DNA from: an uncultured Pelagibacteraceae bacterium
Lineage (GTDB): Bacteria; Pseudomonadota; Alphaproteobacteria; Pelagibacterales; Pelagibacteraceae
Direction of reading: 5' to 3'
Length of the DNA stretch: 45,532 nucleotides
Assembly: GCA_902518595.1 (NCBI GenBank)
Contig: CABYGR010000005.1
Span: 1 to 45,532, forward strand
Shown here: one piece after another, positions 19,226-31,852 of the stretch
Position numbering within the stretch: position 1 is the first letter of the stretch
Layout of the letters: the number at the start of each line of letters is the position of its first letter
Program-made: the position numbers and the translations under genes
The notes under the pieces: model-generated
Database searches by the model: none
What the model was told of the DNA's origin: nothing
What the model saw: only the letters and a program-made list of their open reading frames with translations

Positions 19226-19969
19226 ATGAAATTCAATTACTATAAATTATCAAATTCAAAAAAAATCAGATATTTAATGAACTATAAAAAAAATAGTTCC
19301 TACATTGTATTTCTTCATGGTTTTAAGTCTGATCTAGAGGGAAAAAAGCCAAAAGCTTTTTTAAATTTTGCAAAAAAAAACAAACTAGGGTTTTTAGCAA
19401 TTGAATACTCTGGTCATGGAAAATCATCTGGTAAATTTATTAATGGAAATATTTCTAAATGGAGCAAAGAGACTAGATTGTTAATCAAAAAAATAGTAAA
19501 GAAAAATCAAATAATTTTTGTTGGATCAAGTATGGGGTCCTGGATAGCTCTTAATCAATTTAAAAATTATAAAAAACAAATTATAGGTTTTTTAGGTATC
19601 GGGTCTGCTCCTGAATTTTTAGAAAACTTGATGTGGAAAAAATTTTCTGAAAAAATGAAAAATGAAATTATAAAAAATGGAATTATCAATTTGAAACATG
19701 GGGAATATGAATACCCAATTACCCATCAACTAATTAAAGATGGAAGAAAAAACAAGGTTTTAAACAGATCTATTTTGGAAAAAATAAAAGTTACTATGGT
19801 TCATGGAGAAAAAGATAAATCTGTTCCAAAAACTTATTCAAAAAAAGTTTTGAAAATTTTTAAAAAAGCTGAAAAAAGATTAGTCATTATAAAAAATGGA
19901 AACCATAGTTTATCCACAAAAAATTGGCTCAAAAGATTAATTAAAGAATTAAGTTTAATTATTAACTAA
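19226..19969 (+). CDS. Alpha/beta hydrolase
   Basis: 247 residues. The oxyanion segment is FLHGFKSDLEGKK, and the nucleophile elbow is GSSMGSW (G-x-S-x-G). The likely acid is the Asp in HGEKDKSVP, and the catalytic His is in NGNHSLS near the C-terminus. Small cytoplasmic serine hydrolases of this kind act as esterases, lipases or thioesterases; no substrate can be assigned. There is no signal peptide. It is transcribed divergently from the GT4 gene, and its end overlaps the convergent gltB gene by 8 bases. Confidence 0.85.
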   Translation: MKFNYYKLSNSKKIRYLMNYKKNSSYIVFLHGFKSDLEGKKPKAFLNFAKKNKLGFLAIEYSGHGKSSGKFINGNISKWSKETRLLIKKIVKKNQIIFVGSSMGSWIALNQFKNYKKQIIGFLGIGSAPEFLENLMWKKFSEKMKNEIIKNGIINLKHGEYEYPITHQLIKDGRKNKVLNRSILEKIKVTMVHGEKDKSVPKTYSKKVLKIFKKAEKRLVIIKNGNHSLSTKNWLKRLIKELSLIIN

Positions 19970-22900
19970 CTTTTTTAACCATTTTTTTTAAAGTTATTGG
20001 ATTCTCAAGTTTATCTAGCATCTCTTTAGGACATACTTGAACAAAATTTTTTATTTCATTATCAATATTATCTAAAATTTTTTTTGAAAGTTGAGAATTT
20101 GTCTCTTGATAATGTTCATTAATTAAATCTTTTAAATAATTAATCCAATATTTTGTCTCTACATATTGCCAAATAACTGACTCTTCATTTACTTTTTTTT
20201 CAAAGTCTTTTGATTTATCATAAATAAAAGCCATCCCACCAGTCATGCCAGCTGCAAAATTATCTCCAACATTTCCAAGTATTACTACTGTTCCACCAGT
20301 CATATATTCACATCCATTGGAGTCGCATCCTTCTATAACGGCAATTGCTCCAGAATTTCTAACTGAAAATCTCTCACCTGCTTGACCAGCTGCAAAAAGT
20401 TTTCCTGATGTTGCTCCATATAAAACTGTATTTCCAATAATTGTATTTTCATTAGACACTAAATTACTTTCGTCAGGTAGCTTTATTATTATTGAGCCAC
20501 CAGATAAACCTTTTCCCACATAGTCATTTGCATCACCTTTTAAAACTAATTTTAGACCTTTTATAGAAAATGCCCCAAACGATTGTCCAGCTGAACCCTT
20601 AAAATTTAATGTCAAAAAACTTTCATCAAGTTTTTCATATCCATATTTTTTATAAAGATGATGAGAAATTCTAGTTCCAACAGCTCTATTAGTATTTTTA
20701 ATTAAATATTCTTTTTCAATTTTTCCAGAATTATATAAAGTTTTTTCTATTTCTGGCCAAATTTCTTGGTCTAATGTATTTGGCACAGGATTTATTTCTG
20801 AAGCTTCACAATATCTTTTATTTTCTCCTGAGTCTGCTTGAACAAATAATGGACTCAAATCAAGATCATCTAGATTTGACGAGGCTTTACTTACCTGCAT
20901 TAATAGATCTGTTCTTCCAATAATTTCATTTAAAGATTTAAAACCCAATTCTGCTAAAATTTCTCTTACTTCACTAGCAATAAAGGTAAACAAATTTACA
21001 ATTTTATCTGGTGTTCCAGTAAATTTTTCTCTCAGTTTTTTATCTTGGGTACAAACTCCAACTGGACAGGTATTAGAGTGACACTGTCTAACCATAATGC
21101 ATCCCATTGCTACTAAAGCAGTAGTTGCAACTCCATATTCCTCTGCTCCCATCATGGCAGCAACTACAACATCTCTACCAGTTTTAATTCCACCATCAGT
21201 TCTTAATGTAACTTTATGTCTTAGATTATTTAGAGTTAGAACCTGATTAGCCTCAGTAAGTCCCATTTCCCATGGTATACCTACATATTTTACACTAGTT
21301 TGAGGGGTGGCCCCTGTTCCTCCATTATGTCCAGAAATCAAAATAATATCTGCTTTAGCTTTTGCAACACCCGCAGCGATTGTTCCAACGCCTGAAGATG
21401 CTACAAGCTTAACTCCAACTCTAGCATTAGGATTTACTTGTTTAAGGTCATAAATTAATTGAGCTAAATCCTCAATAGAATAAATATCATGGTGTGGTGG
21501 TGGTGAAATTAAAGTTACTCCCGGAGTTGAATGTCTTAGTCTTGCTATTTCTTTAGTAACTTTAAATCCTGGTAATTGTCCACCTTCACCTGGTTTTGCT
21601 CCTTGAGCAATTTTAATTTCAATTTCATTGCAATTATTTAAGTAATTTATTGTTACACCAAATCTTGCTGATGCAATTTGTTTTACTCTAGAGTTTGCAC
21701 TATCTCCATTATCTTGAGTGTGAAATCTACTCTGATCTTCACCACCTTCTCCACTGCAAGAAGCCCCTTTAATTCTATTCATTCCAATTGCTAAAGTTTC
21801 ATGAGCTTCTTTTGATAGAGCTCCATGAGACATACTTCCACTTCCAAATCGTCTTAATATTTTTTTTATTGGTTCTACTTCGTTAATGTTGATCGGAGGA
21901 CCTAATTTTTTTTTTCTAAAATTTATTAGATCTCTTAAATTTATTGGTGGTAAATCATAAATACCTTTTGCATATTTTTTATAAGCTTCATAAGAATTTG
22001 ATCCAACTGCATTTTGTAATAAATGAATTAATCTTCCTTGATATTGATGTGTTTCTCCATTTTTTCTATATCTATAAATTCCACCGATGGGTAAAACAGT
22101 ATCTGTTGTTTCAAAAGCTTCCTTGTGAATTACTCTTATTTTTTTTTCAATACCCAACAGGCCAATTCCAGAAATCTTAGAAATTATTCCTGGAAAAAAA
22201 TCATCTACGATAGTTCTGCTTAGCCCCACTGTTTCAAAATTACAACCACCCCTGTAAGAGCTTAAAACTGAAATTCCCATCTTAGACATTATCTTTAATA
22301 AGCCAGCATTTACTGATTTTATGTATCTTTCTATACATTCATCAAAACTGAATTGGCCAAATAATTTCTTTTCAAATCTTTGATATAAACTATCAAATGC
22401 AAGATAAGGATTAACTGTAGTTGCTCCTACCCCAATTAAAGTTGCAAAAGAATGCGTATCTAACGCTTCACCAGACTGAACATTTATTGAAACGTATCCT
22501 CTTAATTTTTTTTTAATTAAAAATGAGTTGACTGCTCCAACACATAATAACATTGGAATTGGAAGTTTTTCTTGCGATAAATTTTTATCACTTAATATTA
22601 ATTGTGTAATACCTTGTCTTACAGCAATCTCAGCCTCCTTTTGTAAATTGTCAATTGCAGATGCTAGTGTCTTTTTTTTTGAAAAAGTACAATCTATTTC
22701 TACTGAATTCTTTCCAAAAAAATTAATAAATTTTCCAAACTGTGTATTTGATAGAATTGGGCTATTTAATACATAAATATTTTCTTTTGTTAAGGTATCG
22801 AAATCTAAAATATTTCCAAGATTCCCAAACCTTGTCTTTAAACTCATAACTTTATTTTCTCTTAAAGAATCAATTGGAGGATTGGTTACTTGGCTAAAAT

Positions 22901-24467
22901 TTTGTCTAAAAAAATGGTATAAAGGCCTATATTTATCTGACAAAACAGCTAAGGGAGTATCGTCTCCCATTGACCCTGTTGCTTCTTTAGCATCCTCAGC
23001 CATAGGGTGCAAAATTAACTCTAGATCCTCAAGACTAATTCCAAAAGAATGTTGTCTTCTTCTCAAATCTTCACCCGAAAAATTATTTTTTTCGTTTGAA
23101 ATTATTAATTTGTCATCAAGATCAACTATCTGAGAGTTAAAGTGTTTATATTCTTTAGCTAAGTAATCTTTTATCTTTTCATTGTTAAAGACTTTTCCTT
23201 TTTCAATTCTTACTCCTATAATTTCACCTGGTCCTAATCTACCTTTTGTTATTATTTTTTTTTCATTTAATTCGAACATTCCTGTTTCTGAGCCAGCAAA
23301 TAAAAATTTGTCTTTAGTGATTGTATATCTCAATGGCCTTAAACCATTTCTATCATTAGCAGCAATAACCCATTCATTATCTGTTGCTGCTATAGCAGCT
23401 GGTCCATCCCAAGGTTCCATTGTACTATTTAAAAAATTGAATAACTGCTGATTAGATTTTGAAAGTGTTTTACTTTTTTTTGACCAAGCATCAGGAACTA
23501 ACATCAATTTTGCAAGGGGTGCTGGTTGACCAGATATATTTAATAATTCAAAAACATTATCTAAAGCAGCAGAGTCTGATGCGCCCTTTTGAATTACAGG
23601 TTTAAGATTATTTACATTTTCAAATAATGGACTATTCATTTCTTCTTCATGAACTTTCATCCAATTTTTATTTCCCCTATAAGTATTTATTTCTCCATTA
23701 TGTGCTATAGCTCTAAAAGGTTGAGCTAAATTCCAACTTGGTGCTGTGTTGGTGGAAAATCTTTGATGAAAAATTGCATATCTAGATATAAATCTTTCAT
23801 CTTTAAGATCTAAATAAAAATCGGCTATACTTTCAGCCAAAAACATACCTTTATAAATAATTGATTTAGAACTTAATGAGCATACATAAAAATTGTTTAG
23901 AGATAAATTAAGAGCTTTATTTTCTATTTTTCTTCTAGTTTCATATATTTTTCTCTCTAATTCTTTATTTAACAAATTTTGATCATTAGACTTAAAAAGT
24001 ACTTGAATAATTTCTGGCATTGTTTGAAAAGCTTTAACACCCAAAACTTTTGAATTAACCGGAACCTGTCTCCACCCAAAAATATTAAAATTATTTTTTG
24101 TTAGTTCACTTTCGACTATTGTTTTACAACTTTCTTGTGCGTCATAATCATTTCTCGGTAAGAAAATCATACCAACGCAAATTTCACAATCATCATATTT
24201 GTGGCCTGTTACTTCTACTTTTTCTATAAAAAAATCTTTTGGAATCTCTACATGTATTCCAGCCCCATCTCCTGTTTTACCATCTGCGTCTACTGCACCT
24301 CTGTGCCAAACAGCTTTTAATGCTTCAATTCCATATTTAACCACTTGCCTTGATTTTTTACCCTCTGTAGAGGCAACTAAGCCCACTCCACATGCGTCAT
24401 GCTCCATTTCTTTTGAATAGACATGATTTTTTTCAAGTAATTTTAAATTTTTATAATATTTTTTCAT
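19962..24467 (-). CDS. gltB: Glutamate synthase large (alpha) subunit
   Basis: 1501 residues, the usual GltB size. The class II glutaminase domain begins at C26 (HDACGVGLVAS), so a 25-residue propeptide is removed to expose the catalytic cysteine. Next are the central domain, the FMN-binding TIM-barrel synthase domain (GEGGEDQSRF, ISGHNGGTGATPQTS) and the [3Fe-4S] cluster cysteines (CIMVRQCHSNTCPVGVC). The C-terminal GXGXG beta-helix (GGTVVILGNVGDNFAAGMTGG) completes it. With GltD it makes two glutamates from glutamine and 2-oxoglutarate, the main ammonium-assimilation route with glutamine synthetase. Its ATG shares one base with the gltD stop. Confidence 0.98.
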   Translation of the reverse strand: MKKYYKNLKLLEKNHVYSKEMEHDACGVGLVASTEGKKSRQVVKYGIEALKAVWHRGAVDADGKTGDGAGIHVEIPKDFFIEKVEVTGHKYDDCEICVGMIFLPRNDYDAQESCKTIVESELTKNNFNIFGWRQVPVNSKVLGVKAFQTMPEIIQVLFKSNDQNLLNKELERKIYETRRKIENKALNLSLNNFYVCSLSSKSIIYKGMFLAESIADFYLDLKDERFISRYAIFHQRFSTNTAPSWNLAQPFRAIAHNGEINTYRGNKNWMKVHEEEMNSPLFENVNNLKPVIQKGASDSAALDNVFELLNISGQPAPLAKLMLVPDAWSKKSKTLSKSNQQLFNFLNSTMEPWDGPAAIAATDNEWVIAANDRNGLRPLRYTITKDKFLFAGSETGMFELNEKKIITKGRLGPGEIIGVRIEKGKVFNNEKIKDYLAKEYKHFNSQIVDLDDKLIISNEKNNFSGEDLRRRQHSFGISLEDLELILHPMAEDAKEATGSMGDDTPLAVLSDKYRPLYHFFRQNFSQVTNPPIDSLRENKVMSLKTRFGNLGNILDFDTLTKENIYVLNSPILSNTQFGKFINFFGKNSVEIDCTFSKKKTLASAIDNLQKEAEIAVRQGITQLILSDKNLSQEKLPIPMLLCVGAVNSFLIKKKLRGYVSINVQSGEALDTHSFATLIGVGATTVNPYLAFDSLYQRFEKKLFGQFSFDECIERYIKSVNAGLLKIMSKMGISVLSSYRGGCNFETVGLSRTIVDDFFPGIISKISGIGLLGIEKKIRVIHKEAFETTDTVLPIGGIYRYRKNGETHQYQGRLIHLLQNAVGSNSYEAYKKYAKGIYDLPPINLRDLINFRKKKLGPPININEVEPIKKILRRFGSGSMSHGALSKEAHETLAIGMNRIKGASCSGEGGEDQSRFHTQDNGDSANSRVKQIASARFGVTINYLNNCNEIEIKIAQGAKPGEGGQLPGFKVTKEIARLRHSTPGVTLISPPPHHDIYSIEDLAQLIYDLKQVNPNARVGVKLVASSGVGTIAAGVAKAKADIILISGHNGGTGATPQTSVKYVGIPWEMGLTEANQVLTLNNLRHKVTLRTDGGIKTGRDVVVAAMMGAEEYGVATTALVAMGCIMVRQCHSNTCPVGVCTQDKKLREKFTGTPDKIVNLFTFIASEVREILAELGFKSLNEIIGRTDLLMQVSKASSNLDDLDLSPLFVQADSGENKRYCEASEINPVPNTLDQEIWPEIEKTLYNSGKIEKEYLIKNTNRAVGTRISHHLYKKYGYEKLDESFLTLNFKGSAGQSFGAFSIKGLKLVLKGDANDYVGKGLSGGSIIIKLPDESNLVSNENTIIGNTVLYGATSGKLFAAGQAGERFSVRNSGAIAVIEGCDSNGCEYMTGGTVVILGNVGDNFAAGMTGGMAFIYDKSKDFEKKVNEESVIWQYVETKYWINYLKDLINEHYQETNSQLSKKILDNIDNEIKNFVQVCPKEMLDKLENPITLKKMVKKVS

Positions 24468-25906
24468 TAAGCTACTTTTGCTTTTTGGGCTACTTTAGTT
24501 TCTAAATATTTTTTAATAGAAGATGCAGCATCTCTTCCATCTTTAATTGCCCAAACAACTAAAGAAGCTCCTCTAACTATATCTCCAGCGGCAAAAACTC
24601 CTTCTAAATTGGTCTCCATAGTGTCAAAGTCAGTTTTGATTGTTCCCCATTTTGAGACTTGTAATTCTTGTGAATCAAATAAATTTGGTAAATTTTCTGG
24701 ATCAAAACCTAGGGCCTTAATAACCATATCAGCTTTAATTTCAAAATTTGATCCTTTTTTAATTTCAGGCCTTCTTCTTCCACTTTCATCAGGATCTCCT
24801 AATTGAATCTTGTCTACAATCAAACTTTCAATTTTACTAGTTCCCTTAAATTCTTTTGGACTTGATAGCCAAACAAATTCTACACCTTCTTCTTCTGCAT
24901 TTGAAACTTCTCTCGCTGAACCTGGCATATTTTCTTTATCTCTTCTGTATAAACATTTTACTGATTTTGCTTTTTGTCTTATAGAAGTTCTAACACAATC
25001 CATAGCTGTATCACCTCCACCTATAACCACTACATCCTTTCCTTCAGCGTTTAAAACTCCTTTATCAAATAACTCAACTTCATCACCTAATCCTTTTCTA
25101 TTAGAGGCAGTTAAAAATTCCATCGCTGGAAAAATGTTATTTAAATCATTTCCAGGTAAGTTAATCTCTCTAGCTTTATAAACTCCAGTTGCGATCAATA
25201 AGGCATCATGTTTTTTTCTTAATTGTTCTAAATTAGAATCTTTTCCTACTTCAAAATTTTGAATAAATTCTATCCCACTTTCATCTAGGAGTTTTGTTCT
25301 TCTCTGTACTACAAATTTTTCTAATTTAAAATTAGGTATTCCATAGATTAAGAGACCACCTGGTCGATCATAGCGATCATAAATGGTGATTTTATAACCA
25401 CATTTTCTTAGTTGTTCAGCAGCTGCTAGTCCAGCTGGTCCAGCTCCTATAATTCCTATGCTTTGATTTTTTTCATTTTTAATCTTTAATGGTTTAATCC
25501 ATCCTTTCTCCCAAGCAGTATCCGTAATATATTTTTCAACTGAACCAATAGTAACTGTTCCATGACCAGACTGTTCTATTACACAATTTCCTTCGCATAA
25601 TCTGTCCTGTGGACATATTCTTCCACAAACCTCAGGCATATTATTAGTACTTTGTGACAATTCATAAGCCTCTTGAACTCTCCCCTCTGCAGTTAATTTT
25701 AACCAATCTGGAATATTATTACTTAAAGGGCAATGAATCTGACAAAATGGAACTCCACACTGAGAGCATCTACTTGATTGTTCTTTTGCTTTGTCTTTAA
25801 TAAACTGGTTATATATTTCCTTAAAATCTGATTTTCTATTTTCAACATCTCTTTTAGGTGGATTTTGTTGACCTATTTTTACAAATTTTAACATTTTATC
25901 AGTCAT
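24467..25906 (-). CDS. gltD: Glutamate synthase small (beta) subunit
   Basis: 479 residues. The N-terminal cysteine-rich segment (CSQCGVPFCQIHCPL; CGRICPQDRLCEGNC) binds [4Fe-4S] clusters. The FAD-binding motif GIIGAGPAGLAAAEQL and the NADPH-binding motif VVVIGGGDTAMDC follow, and the C-terminal GVFAAGDIVRGASLVVWAI closes the FAD site. It passes NADPH electrons to GltB. Here gltD precedes gltB, with a one-base overlap (TAATG). The divergent uppP gene lies 184 bp away across a region containing several inverted repeats. Confidence 0.97.
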   Translation of the reverse strand: MTDKMLKFVKIGQQNPPKRDVENRKSDFKEIYNQFIKDKAKEQSSRCSQCGVPFCQIHCPLSNNIPDWLKLTAEGRVQEAYELSQSTNNMPEVCGRICPQDRLCEGNCVIEQSGHGTVTIGSVEKYITDTAWEKGWIKPLKIKNEKNQSIGIIGAGPAGLAAAEQLRKCGYKITIYDRYDRPGGLLIYGIPNFKLEKFVVQRRTKLLDESGIEFIQNFEVGKDSNLEQLRKKHDALLIATGVYKAREINLPGNDLNNIFPAMEFLTASNRKGLGDEVELFDKGVLNAEGKDVVVIGGGDTAMDCVRTSIRQKAKSVKCLYRRDKENMPGSAREVSNAEEEGVEFVWLSSPKEFKGTSKIESLIVDKIQLGDPDESGRRRPEIKKGSNFEIKADMVIKALGFDPENLPNLFDSQELQVSKWGTIKTDFDTMETNLEGVFAAGDIVRGASLVVWAIKDGRDAASSIKKYLETKVAQKAKVA

Positions 25907-25941
25907 AATTTTTTTTGAATATAAAGCAAAATATACATTGT

Positions 25942-25955
25942 TTTTACTAGTAAAA
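25942..25955. promoter_or_regulatory. 14-bp perfect palindrome upstream of gltD
   Basis: TTTTACTAGTAAAA reads identically on both strands. It lies about 36 bp upstream of the gltD start, where a promoter-overlapping operator could sit. It is A+T-rich apart from the central ACTAGT, so chance is possible, but it adds to two further dyads in the same 184-bp gap. Confidence 0.35.
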
Positions 25956-25962
25956 GAATTAT

Positions 25963-25985
25963 TTAGGTCAGTATTTATGACCTAA
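25963..25985. promoter_or_regulatory. Inverted repeat, candidate operator between gltD and uppP
   Basis: TTAGGTCA and TGACCTAA are perfect 8-bp inverted arms separated by 7 bp, a geometry typical of a dimeric transcription factor. It lies 57-79 bp upstream of gltD and just before a TATAAT box pointing toward uppP, so it could activate gltDB or repress uppP. The GGTC/GACC cores make it less A+T-biased than its surroundings. No known regulator is recognised. Confidence 0.5.
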
Positions 25986-25992
25986 TTTTAAC

Positions 25993-25998
25993 TATAAT
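25993..25998 (+). promoter_or_regulatory. Candidate -10 box (TATAAT) toward uppP
   Basis: A perfect TATAAT on the plus strand, 8 bp downstream of the 23-bp dyad. It would give a leader of roughly 85 nt before the uppP ATG at 26091. No consensus -35 is visible at 17 bp, where the right half of the dyad's spacer lies; that fits activator dependence or chance equally. Confidence 0.3.
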
Positions 25999-26038
25999 CA
26001 CCTTTAAATAAAGAAATTTTAATAATTGCATATCTAAT

Positions 26039-26053
26039 ATTCGAAAATCGAAT
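26039..26053. repeat. Short inverted repeat in the uppP leader region
   Basis: ATTCGA-AAA-TCGAAT: 6-bp perfect arms around a 3-nt centre, 38 bp upstream of the uppP ATG. It could form a small hairpin in the mRNA leader or act as an operator. Support is weak because of its size. Confidence 0.3.
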
Positions 26054-26090
26054 TGTTTAAAATGAATATTTTTTAAGTTACCACAATTAT

Positions 26091-26858
26091 ATGTTCCAAG
26101 ATTTTATAGAAATACTAATACTTTCAGCTATCCAAGGAATATCTGAGTTTTTACCAATCAGTTCATCAGCACATTTAATATTAATATCAAACTTTTACGA
26201 TTTTAGATCTAGTTCATTATTGATTGATATTAGTTTACATCTAGGATCTTTATTTGCGATAATATTTTATTTTAAAAATGAATTATTTGACCTTAAAAAT
26301 AATCAAAAAATTTTAATTCTTTTAATCATTGGCTCAATACCCCTTATCATTTTTGGGTACTTGCTATACACAACTGATCTAATCTATTTATTTAGAAATC
26401 CAAAGATTATTGCTTTTACAACTTTATTTTTTGGAATAATACTTTATTTTGCGGACCAAAGAAAAATTGAAAAAAATATTTCAGCAAATTTAAATTTTAG
26501 ATCAATATTGTTTATTGGTTTATTTCAGATACTTGCTTTAATTCCAGGTGTAAGTAGGGCAGGTATTACAATTACTGCTGCGAGATTTCTCAAATTTAAT
26601 AGAGTTGATGCTAGCAAAATTTCTTTTTTATTATCCATCCCTGCACTTACTGGTGCAAGTTTTCTAGAATTAAAGGATATAATTAATCATTCAATTGAAA
26701 TAAATTTAATTATATTTGTTGCAATTATATTATCATTTTTATTTTCTTTTATTACTGTTAAATTCTTTTTAAAATATATAGAAAAATTTTCATTAAATAT
26801 TTTTGTAATATACAGAATTATCGTTAGTTTAATTTTATTTAAATTAATTTATTTTTAA
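26091..26858 (+). CDS. uppP: Undecaprenyl-diphosphatase (UppP/BacA)
   Basis: 255 residues of hydrophobic polytopic protein with about seven or eight membrane segments. Both family signatures are present: the N-terminal GISEFLPISSSAHLIL (catalytic Glu and Ser-rich loop) and the second motif LIPGVSRAGITITAARFL with its conserved arginine. It dephosphorylates undecaprenyl pyrophosphate to recycle the lipid carrier for peptidoglycan and O-antigen synthesis. It is slightly shorter than the ~270-residue average. It is divergent from gltD, and its stop overlaps the convergent EamA gene by 4 bases. Confidence 0.95.
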   Translation: MFQDFIEILILSAIQGISEFLPISSSAHLILISNFYDFRSSSLLIDISLHLGSLFAIIFYFKNELFDLKNNQKILILLIIGSIPLIIFGYLLYTTDLIYLFRNPKIIAFTTLFFGIILYFADQRKIEKNISANLNFRSILFIGLFQILALIPGVSRAGITITAARFLKFNRVDASKISFLLSIPALTGASFLELKDIINHSIEINLIIFVAIILSFLFSFITVKFFLKYIEKFSLNIFVIYRIIVSLILFKLIYF

Positions 26859-28682: not shown

Positions 28683-31600
28683 TTATAATTTTGTAGGCAT
28701 TGGTTTTTCAGTGTCTATTTTATATTTTTTTATTGCATCTTTTGCATATTTTGATGTCAAAAGTTGTTCCTTGGCTAATATACTCAATCCATATGTAACA
28801 ATATGTTCTTTATCAACTTCAAAAAATTTTCTTAATTTGGTTCTTGTATCACTTCTTCCAAATCCATCTGTTCCTAAAGAATAAAAACTTTTATTAATAT
28901 AAGGTCTTATCTGATCTGAATTCATTCTCATATAATCTGAAGCTGCTAATATAGGACCTTCAGTATCTCCTAAACATTTTTCAACAAATGATTTTTTTTG
29001 ATCCTTATCTGGATTTAGAAGGTTATACCTTTCAATTTCTAACCCATTTCTTCTTAATTCGTTAAAACTTGTAACACTCCAGATTTCACTATCTATTTTA
29101 TATTCCTTCTGTAATATTTCTGCACCAGCTATCATTTCTCTAAGGATCGATCCTGAGCCAAGAAACTGAATTTTTGTTTTTTTGTATTTGTTAAATTCTT
29201 TAATCTTGTACATTCCATTTAAAATTCCTTCTTCGCATTTTTTATCTTTTGGCATTTCAGGATGTGGGTAATTTTCGTTCATTGTTGTAATGTAATAAAA
29301 AATATTCTCATTTTTTTCATGCATTCTTCTTAATCCTTCTCTAAAAATAACAGCAAGTTCATAATGAAAAGTTGGATCATAAGAGACACAATTGGGAATA
29401 GTTGATGCCATCAAGTGACTGTGACCATCTTGATGTTGTAATCCCTCACCAGCTAATGTTGTTCTGCCAGCAGTTGCTCCAATTAAAAAACCCCGAGATT
29501 GACTATCTGCTCCTGCCCAAGCAAAATCACCGATCCTTTGAAAACCAAACATAGAATAAAATAAATAAATAGGTATCATTTCTATATCATGATTGGTGTA
29601 TGAGGTTCCTGCTGCAATCCAAGATGACATTGCTCCTGCCTCAGTTATTCCTTCTTCTAAAACTTGACCACTTTTTTCTTCTCTATAGGAACTCAGTTGA
29701 GCAGCATCTTCTGGTTCATACTTTTGGCCTTCATGAGCATATATTCCAATTTTTTGAAAAAATCCTTCCATACCAAATGTTCTTGCCTCATCAGGAATAA
29801 TAGGAACTAATCTTTGTGCTAAATTTTTATCTCTAAGTAAATTTGTTAACATTCTTACTAAAGCCATTGTAGTAGACATTTCCTTTTTTCCTGTGGACTC
29901 TTTCATATTATCAAAAATATTTTTTGGTGGTGCTTTGATAGGTTTAGCATATGTAGTTCTTTCTGGAATAAATCCGCCAAGTTGAAGTCTTCTCTCTTTA
30001 ATGTACTTTATCTCTGGTGAATTTTGATCAGGTTTATAATATTCAATATTTCTTACTTGATCATCGTTTAATGGAACATCAAATCTATCTCTGTAATACA
30101 TTAAATCATCTATATCTAATTTTTTAGTTTGATGAGTAGTATTTACACTTTCTCCACTTTTTCCCATGCCATAACCTTTAATAGTTTTAGCAATTACAAC
30201 TGTTGGGCTTCCAATATTTTTTGAAGCCTTGTCGTAAGCTGCAAATACTTTATGGGGATCATGTCCACCTCTATTTAATCTCCAAATATCTTTATCAGAT
30301 AGGCTCGAAATTAAATTTTTAGTTTCTTGGTATTTACCAAAAAACTTTTCTCTAACATAAGCACCATCTCTTGCTTTCATTGCCTGATATTCACCATCCA
30401 CTGTTTCATTCATGGTTTTAACTAAATGTCCTGTTTTATCGTTTGCTAATAAAGAGTCCCAGTAAGATCCCCATATTACTTTAATTACATTCCACCCAGC
30501 ACCTCTAAAAATTCCCTCTAATTCTTGAATAATTTTTCCATTTCCTCTAACAGGACCATCTAACCTTTGTAAATTACAATTAACAACAAAAATTAAATTA
30601 TCTAATTTTTCTCTAGCTGCTAAACCAATAGCTCCTAAAGACTCAGGTTCATCCATTTCACCATCACCTAAGAATGCCCAAACTTTTCTTCCTTCATCTT
30701 TTATTAAACCTCTATTAATTAAATATTTCATATATCTTGCTTGATAAATTGCTAACATTGGACCTAAGCCCATAGATACTGTTGGGAATTGCCAAAAATT
30801 TGGCATTAACCATGGATGGGGATAAGATGATAGTCCCCCAGGATTTACTTCTTGTCTAAAACTATCCAATTGTTTTTCGCTAAGTCTTCCCTCTAGAAAA
30901 GCTCTTGCATACATTCCAGGCGCACTATGACCTTGGAAGTAAATTAAATCTCCCCCAAATTTATTATTTTTTGCTCTCCAAAAATGATTCATTCCGACAT
31001 CATATAGGGTTGCTGCAGATGCAAATGTTCCTATATGCCCTCCGAGCTCAGGAAACTTTTTATTAGCTCTGACTACCATTGCAGCTGCATTCCATCTTAT
31101 TAAAGATCTAATTCTTCTTTCAGTATTTTGGTCTCCATTAGATTTTTTTTCCTCACTAACAGGTATTGTGTTTATATATGGAGTATTTTGCGTATATGGA
31201 ATATTTGCACCTTCTTTATAAGCTTTGTTAATTAATTCCTTAATAAGATAATGAGCTCTCTGGTTACCATCTTTTTCAATAACAGATGACAATGATTCTA
31301 ACCATTCACTAGTTTCTAGAGGATCAATATCACCCTTATTTACTACCTGAATTATTTCAGATTTTTTTTCTCTTGCTTTTTCTGTCTCTTGTATGTTTCC
31401 AGTGGGTTTTTTTACTGATACTTTAGAAGCTTGTTCTTGAGAATTTTTTAAAGAAATCTCAGCTTCTTGAATTAAGTTTTCAGTATTTTTTGGAACTTCT
31501 TCTGAAGATGAAATGGCATCCTTTTTGCTTGATACTATTAAAAGCAAATCATCTTTCGAAACTTTATCTCCAACTTTTACCTCTATTTTTTCTATCTTAC

Positions 31601-31757
31601 CCTCAATAGTAGATGGAATTTCAACACTTGATTTATCACTTTCAATAGTAACTATAGGATCATTCTTTTTGATTTCTTGTCCTTCTTTAACTAAGAGTTC
31701 AATTACCTCAACATTTTCAAATTCACCAATATCAGGAACTAATAATTTTTCAGACAT
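28683..31757 (-). CDS. aceE: Pyruvate dehydrogenase E1, homodimeric type, with N-terminal lipoyl domain
   Basis: 1024 residues from the ATG at 31757; an in-frame ATG 17 codons upstream is possible, but MSEKLLVPDIGEF is a typical lipoyl-domain start. Residues 1-76 are a lipoyl domain with the modifiable lysine K42 in ESDKSSVEIP. A charged flexible linker (about 77-140) leads into a complete AceE-type E1 starting near DPLETSEWLE. The thiamine diphosphate motif is GDGEMDEPES...NCNLQRLDG. E1 decarboxylates pyruvate and acetylates lipoate, here on its own arm. Ordinary AceE is about 885 residues with no lipoyl domain. The E2 gene follows after one base. Confidence 0.93.
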   Translation of the reverse strand: MSEKLLVPDIGEFENVEVIELLVKEGQEIKKNDPIVTIESDKSSVEIPSTIEGKIEKIEVKVGDKVSKDDLLLIVSSKKDAISSSEEVPKNTENLIQEAEISLKNSQEQASKVSVKKPTGNIQETEKAREKKSEIIQVVNKGDIDPLETSEWLESLSSVIEKDGNQRAHYLIKELINKAYKEGANIPYTQNTPYINTIPVSEEKKSNGDQNTERRIRSLIRWNAAAMVVRANKKFPELGGHIGTFASAATLYDVGMNHFWRAKNNKFGGDLIYFQGHSAPGMYARAFLEGRLSEKQLDSFRQEVNPGGLSSYPHPWLMPNFWQFPTVSMGLGPMLAIYQARYMKYLINRGLIKDEGRKVWAFLGDGEMDEPESLGAIGLAAREKLDNLIFVVNCNLQRLDGPVRGNGKIIQELEGIFRGAGWNVIKVIWGSYWDSLLANDKTGHLVKTMNETVDGEYQAMKARDGAYVREKFFGKYQETKNLISSLSDKDIWRLNRGGHDPHKVFAAYDKASKNIGSPTVVIAKTIKGYGMGKSGESVNTTHQTKKLDIDDLMYYRDRFDVPLNDDQVRNIEYYKPDQNSPEIKYIKERRLQLGGFIPERTTYAKPIKAPPKNIFDNMKESTGKKEMSTTMALVRMLTNLLRDKNLAQRLVPIIPDEARTFGMEGFFQKIGIYAHEGQKYEPEDAAQLSSYREEKSGQVLEEGITEAGAMSSWIAAGTSYTNHDIEMIPIYLFYSMFGFQRIGDFAWAGADSQSRGFLIGATAGRTTLAGEGLQHQDGHSHLMASTIPNCVSYDPTFHYELAVIFREGLRRMHEKNENIFYYITTMNENYPHPEMPKDKKCEEGILNGMYKIKEFNKYKKTKIQFLGSGSILREMIAGAEILQKEYKIDSEIWSVTSFNELRRNGLEIERYNLLNPDKDQKKSFVEKCLGDTEGPILAASDYMRMNSDQIRPYINKSFYSLGTDGFGRSDTRTKLRKFFEVDKEHIVTYGLSILAKEQLLTSKYAKDAIKKYKIDTEKPMPTKL

Positions 31758-31852
31758 TTGTTTATATTTATACACCATAAAACTATAGTAAATTGCAAAT
31801 TTTAACACATTCTGATCAATTTTTGGACATTCTTAAATTGTAACTTATTCAA

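Follow-up and report, generated by a model that had tools for sequence, protein, structure and literature searches.

A conserved inverted repeat upstream of glutamate synthase in SAR11 is a predicted operator shared with the MarR-family gene petP

In Bacillus subtilis, glutamate synthase has a largely dedicated regulator, GltC, a member of the LysR family. The alphaproteobacterium Rhodobacter capsulatus possesses PetP/PetR, a MarR gene adjoining an OmpR-type gene; the pair is reportedly connected with cytochrome bc1 genes, and we know of no link between it and gltBD. SAR11 bacteria, among the most abundant in the ocean, have few transcription regulators; to our knowledge, they operate without PII signalling, and no circuit for their nitrogen response has been agreed on. 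In some alphaproteobacteria, an NtrC site has been predicted upstream of gltBD (PMC5343134). In Liberibacter, the MarR protein LdtR can exert opposite effects from different positions (PMC5481520).

The window analyzed here, a stretch of 45,532 nucleotides, belongs to a SAR11 organism (Pelagibacteraceae), and the relatives of its GltD at 84-91% identity are nearly all single-cell genomes and MAGs of that family. The genome assembly containing it measures 0.78 Mb and is 57% complete. The following features of the window enter the argument:

19962..24467, minus strand: gltB, glutamate synthase large subunit, 1501 aa, 3' of gltD (open reading frame)
24467..25906, minus strand: gltD, glutamate synthase small subunit, 479 aa, first gene of gltDB (open reading frame; 60 of 61 relatives match)
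25930..25935, minus strand: predicted gltD -10 element, reading TATATT on that strand; the TGAC arm of D1 is 31 nt away (from alignment)
25942-25955, no strand: 14-bp palindrome TTTTACTAGTAAAA, located in the stretch that separates D1 from the -10 element; dyad not conserved
25963-25985, no strand: D1, the 8-7-8 predicted operator dyad TTAGGTCA-GTATTTA-TGACCTAA, conserved from genus to class and the top match of the petP matrix
26027..26043, no strand: D2, CATA-N5-TATG or GCA-N9-TGC in most relatives, with a degenerate left arm in the window
26039-26053, no strand: 6-3-6 repeat ATTCGA-AAA-TCGAAT; dyad not conserved
26091..26858, plus strand: uppP, divergent neighbor of gltD, 255 aa (open reading frame)

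The gltD-gltB order is kept in outgroups. uppP is divergent from gltD at every Pelagibacter locus compared and adjoins it at 14 of 20 outgroup loci (L297-L316) spread across the class; judged by gene order, the divergent pair uppP/gltD-gltB is an old arrangement. Elsewhere in the window, a 1041-aa open reading frame (28683-31808, minus strand) appears by eye to fuse a lipoyl-like N-terminal domain to an AceE-type pyruvate dehydrogenase E1.

The initial annotation described a cluster of three inverted repeats in the gltD/uppP gap (25907-26090, 184 bp, 18% GC). All three are present, but only the 8-7-8 dyad proved to be a real signal. Across 1,000 dinucleotide-preserving shuffles of the gap, a 14-bp palindrome arose in 12%, a repeat with 6-bp arms (spacer of at most 10) in 92%, and a repeat with 8-bp arms (spacer of at most 20) in 47%; 8-bp arms with at least three G/C each appeared in only 0.5%. 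The 8-7-8 dyad alone therefore exceeds chance, because of its GGTCA/TGACC content. Alignment with relatives told the same two repeats apart from D1: the palindrome is perfect in 2 of 27 relatives and its arm columns are 61% identical, no better than background, and the 6-3-6 repeat, with columns 74% identical, keeps perfect symmetry in 1 of 27 Pelagibacter gaps. Within D1, the GTCA/TGAC columns are 93.5% identical over the 27 gltD-uppP gaps of the genus, against 52% for the 7-bp spacer and 62% for the remaining gap.

Each of the 106 Pelagibacter gltD upstream regions examined conserves the core GTCA-N7-TGAC. Of the arm bases AGGTCA/TGACCT, 12 in number, between 9 and 12 are matched, and 72 of the regions match all of them. 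A TATA element lies 31 nt from the dyad in 88 of the 106 sequences; the first TATA stands at 29 in 11 more, and three examples of these have the sequence TATATAAT, in which a TATA is also found at 31. The distance from the dyad to the gltD start codon varies from about 55 to 67 nt in the genus. With spacing to the TATA element nearly constant and that to the start codon variable, the dyad keeps its place relative to the promoter and not to the coding start; its center would lie near -51 if the TATA element is the -10.

In the sister family of the same order (f2, loci L225-L244), the exact core occurred in 21 of 21 gltD regions, mostly in two copies: the first, at about -41, precedes a TATAA element, and the second abuts the gltD start codon. 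The half-site is usually ATGTCA there, where Pelagibacter has AGGTCA, so that both arms change symmetrically between the families. When all 4-base dyads were compared over 29 gltD regions of 360 bp each from across the class, GTCA-N7-TGAC was the most frequent, exact in 9 of 29 against 0.12 in shuffles, and the same core with a spacer of 6 or 8 was found zero times. At two outgroup loci, L301 and L304, the dyad is present where no uppP was found beside gltD; it therefore follows gltD and not uppP. The proposal that the 8-7-8 dyad behaves as the site of a dimeric regulator of glutamate synthase, which had been made to depend on conservation upstream of gltD in close relatives, is thus supported in genus, sister family, and class, far beyond those relatives. 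Second in frequency among class-wide gltD dyads was a different element, TAGT-N11-ACTA (often TAGTNCCG...GGTACTA), seen in 7 of the 29 alphaproteobacterial regions (L274, L276, L280, L284, L285, L291, and L292) and seldom together with the MarR-type dyad.

A genome scan for the dyad had also been suggested as a route to further nitrogen genes. Of 121 same-genus genomes, 49 contained a single match to WAGGTCA-N7-TGACCTW, and none contained two. With a regulon matrix applied to the complete genome G091, a relative of the window genome, the gltD site scored 27.1, clearly above background, and the next match (16.0) fell inside a gene. A match of 14.6 immediately preceded the start codon of a MarR-family gene (145 aa), which is followed by an OmpR-type gene. 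The gltD site thus stands out in G091 but no further gene does, the sole other plausible site being that of the MarR-family gene, petP. In other large genomes, most exact dyad matches away from gltD were inside open reading frames. The outgroup genome G174 (L322/L349) has a perfect dyad, TTAGGTCA-N7-TGACCTA, flanked by a LysR gene and a divergent oxidoreductase-like gene, possibly an extra target in that lineage.

Following the G091 match, the same position was examined in other genomes. Nearly every alphaproteobacterium tested has the dyad at the start of petP; the match was exact in 19 of 30 loci, and seven Pelagibacter loci agreed at 7 of the 8 core bases. Among 256 cores in combination with 14 spacers, GTCA-N7-TGAC was the most frequent dyad at this position; elsewhere in 21 distant petP loci it recurred only once, at an unrelated position in a single locus, and of 19 upstream regions of a control gene, 1 had it. 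We then built a matrix from 20 petP sites, all from outside Pelagibacteraceae and with the spacer masked. This petP-only matrix ranked window position 25963 first (20.7 bits versus 8.4 for the next match), and over all of G091 it placed the gltD site second, after a match inside a gene. The full consensus, TTAnGTCA-N7-TGACnTAA, agrees with the window site. Coding constraint does not account for the petP dyad in Pelagibacter and G239, where it lies ahead of the start codon. Many outgroups have a dyad that encloses the start codon, and part of its right arm could reflect coding in those genomes. The start-codon copy at gltD in the sister family has the same placement as the petP operator.

The petP product belongs to the MarR family (PF01047, 33.5 bits against a cut-off of 24.6), and KQSLxRVL is invariant in its helix-turn-helix region among nine sequences from the class. 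For the MarR plus OmpR-type gene pair we use the names PetP and PetR, which come from the pair in R. capsulatus. petP was found in 32 of 35 genomes, sister family included; hits were absent from the partial window assembly, G029 (92% complete), and G025 (86% complete). G209 has an exact gltD dyad, yet its petP-like hits are only weak. Conversely, G239, G202, and G289 have petP without a gltD dyad, so not every genome with petP would have gltDB as a target. petR comes after petP in essentially every locus. Our literature searches found no paper linking a petP-type MarR gene to glutamate synthase.

An inverted-repeat site common to gltD and petP, with the conservation and geometry given above, was observed. 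The reading of D1 as a dimeric-regulator site can accordingly be refined to include a likely candidate binder, a PetP-like MarR-family protein. We consider it likely, on the comparative sequence evidence, that an autoregulated, PetP-like dimer of the MarR family controls the gltDB operon, with D1 as its operator. The PetP dimer would bind the inverted repeats at both gltD and petP. At petP, the start codon adjoins the operator or falls within it, a placement that suggests autorepression, and binding would repress the regulator's own gene. At gltD, a dimer centered at about -51 would sit immediately upstream of the -35 region and activate gltDB, since that position in Pelagibacter favors activation over blocking. 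Because MarR proteins can work in both directions, as LdtR illustrates, we put the direction only somewhat on the side of activation: gltDB is probably activated by PetP.

The proteins that could compete with PetP for this role differ in distribution and in the sites they would be expected to bind. The neighbor PetR, an OmpR-type response regulator, might itself bind the dyad while PetP acts elsewhere; the near-invariant adjacency of the two genes means that the distribution of the dyad fits PetR equally well, and because the genes travel together, co-occurrence cannot separate them as binder. OmpR-type regulators usually bind direct repeats, however, and D1 is a symmetric inverted repeat whose arms change symmetrically between families; placement on the petP start codon is moreover typical of an autorepressor. 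We therefore regard PetR as an unlikely binder and infer that PetP is the protein involved. Binding by NtrX, a conserved NtrC-type nitrogen regulator, is less probable again. NtrX was found in 23 of 24 genomes tested, missing only from the incomplete window genome, and D1 has the 15-bp core with G and C at its ends that is also the geometry of Fis-type sites. The GTCA-N7-TGAC core nevertheless matches neither described NtrX motif, GCAn9TGC (PMC7240162) or CAAn3-5TTG (PMC9223101). The neighboring D2 fits the first of these better than D1 does, and NtrX binding would leave the dyad at petP unexplained. A LysR-type, GltC-like regulator, for which the T-N11-A box within the dyad could be cited along with one widely conserved LysR gene kept in Pelagibacter and the perfect dyad upstream of a LysR gene in G174, is the least credible of the candidates: none of 10 sister-family genomes has the LysR gene, nor do G274 and G198, although the gltD dyad is kept in every one of these, and G239, G202, and G289 have the gene but lack the dyad. 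This distribution contradicts the MDWDKL family of LysR proteins (L162-L170 and L331-L349) as binder. The family has clear relatives across the class.

That the dyad works as RNA, in a hairpin, terminator, or leader element, is very improbable, although a terminator-like scan flagged D1 on both strands and some of its arm changes are symmetric. D1 lies upstream of the predicted gltD -10 and between divergent genes, its outer arm positions are commonly mismatched (mean, 5.96 of 8 pairs), and in Pelagibacter it is the distance to the -10 that is kept and not the distance to the start codon; Rfam returned no known RNA family for D1, the only matches in the window being tRNAs. Several other regulators were considered and set aside. 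An XRE protein is absent from the sister family, which retains the dyad. RegA has a known motif that is GC-rich and does not fit, and the NtrC consensus, TGCACC-N5-GGTGCA, is not matched by GTCA-N7-TGAC. For Lrp, CRP, GntR, TetR, ArsR, and others, no convincing homologue was found in G091 by phmmer with seed sequences, a search that was not exhaustive.

The second conserved element of the gap, D2, is present as CATA-N5-TATG in 94 and as GCA-N9-TGC in 54 of the 106 Pelagibacter sequences, the latter form resembling the NtrX motif GCAn9TGC (PMC7240162). D2 probably belongs to uppP. NtrX controls envelope genes in Rhodobacter sphaeroides (PMC7240162); uppP is a cell-envelope gene, and the NtrX-like D2 is the nearer of the two elements to it.

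Returning to PetP, one broader reading, which we offer tentatively and hold to be somewhat less probable than its opposite, is that it may be an ancestral alphaproteobacterial switch whose core regulon comprises the petPR operon and glutamate synthase and which couples a signal to nitrogen assimilation independently of PII/NtrC, SAR11 having been reduced to little more than these two targets. With a named operator, a candidate regulator, and a short target list, one branch of the SAR11 nitrogen response becomes directly testable. The site and the gene are common to many other alphaproteobacteria, so such work is possible without SAR11 genetics, and a widely conserved but little-studied regulator pair gains a hypothesis of function.

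Of the known systems, the autoregulated MarR-family regulators, MarR itself and LdtR of Liberibacter, resemble PetP in having a MarR domain, an inverted-repeat operator, and a site at the regulator's own start. The LdtR site, ATATTCCTTGTATTTTAA (PMC5481520), differs from D1, the petP product falls below the NCBIfam cut-off for LdtR, and the LdtR target is the cell wall, whereas the target predicted here is glutamate synthase. The cyanobacterial PetR/PetP is an unrelated CopY/BlaR pair with only the name in common. NtrC regulation of gltBD likewise involves a regulator site upstream of these genes, but its consensus is unlike D1. GltC also regulates glutamate synthase but belongs to another protein family, and the LysR candidate here fails on distribution. 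What is new is the predicted operator and the predicted regulon link that joins petP to glutamate synthase; the regulator would be of a known kind, and the predicted operator is unusually well conserved.
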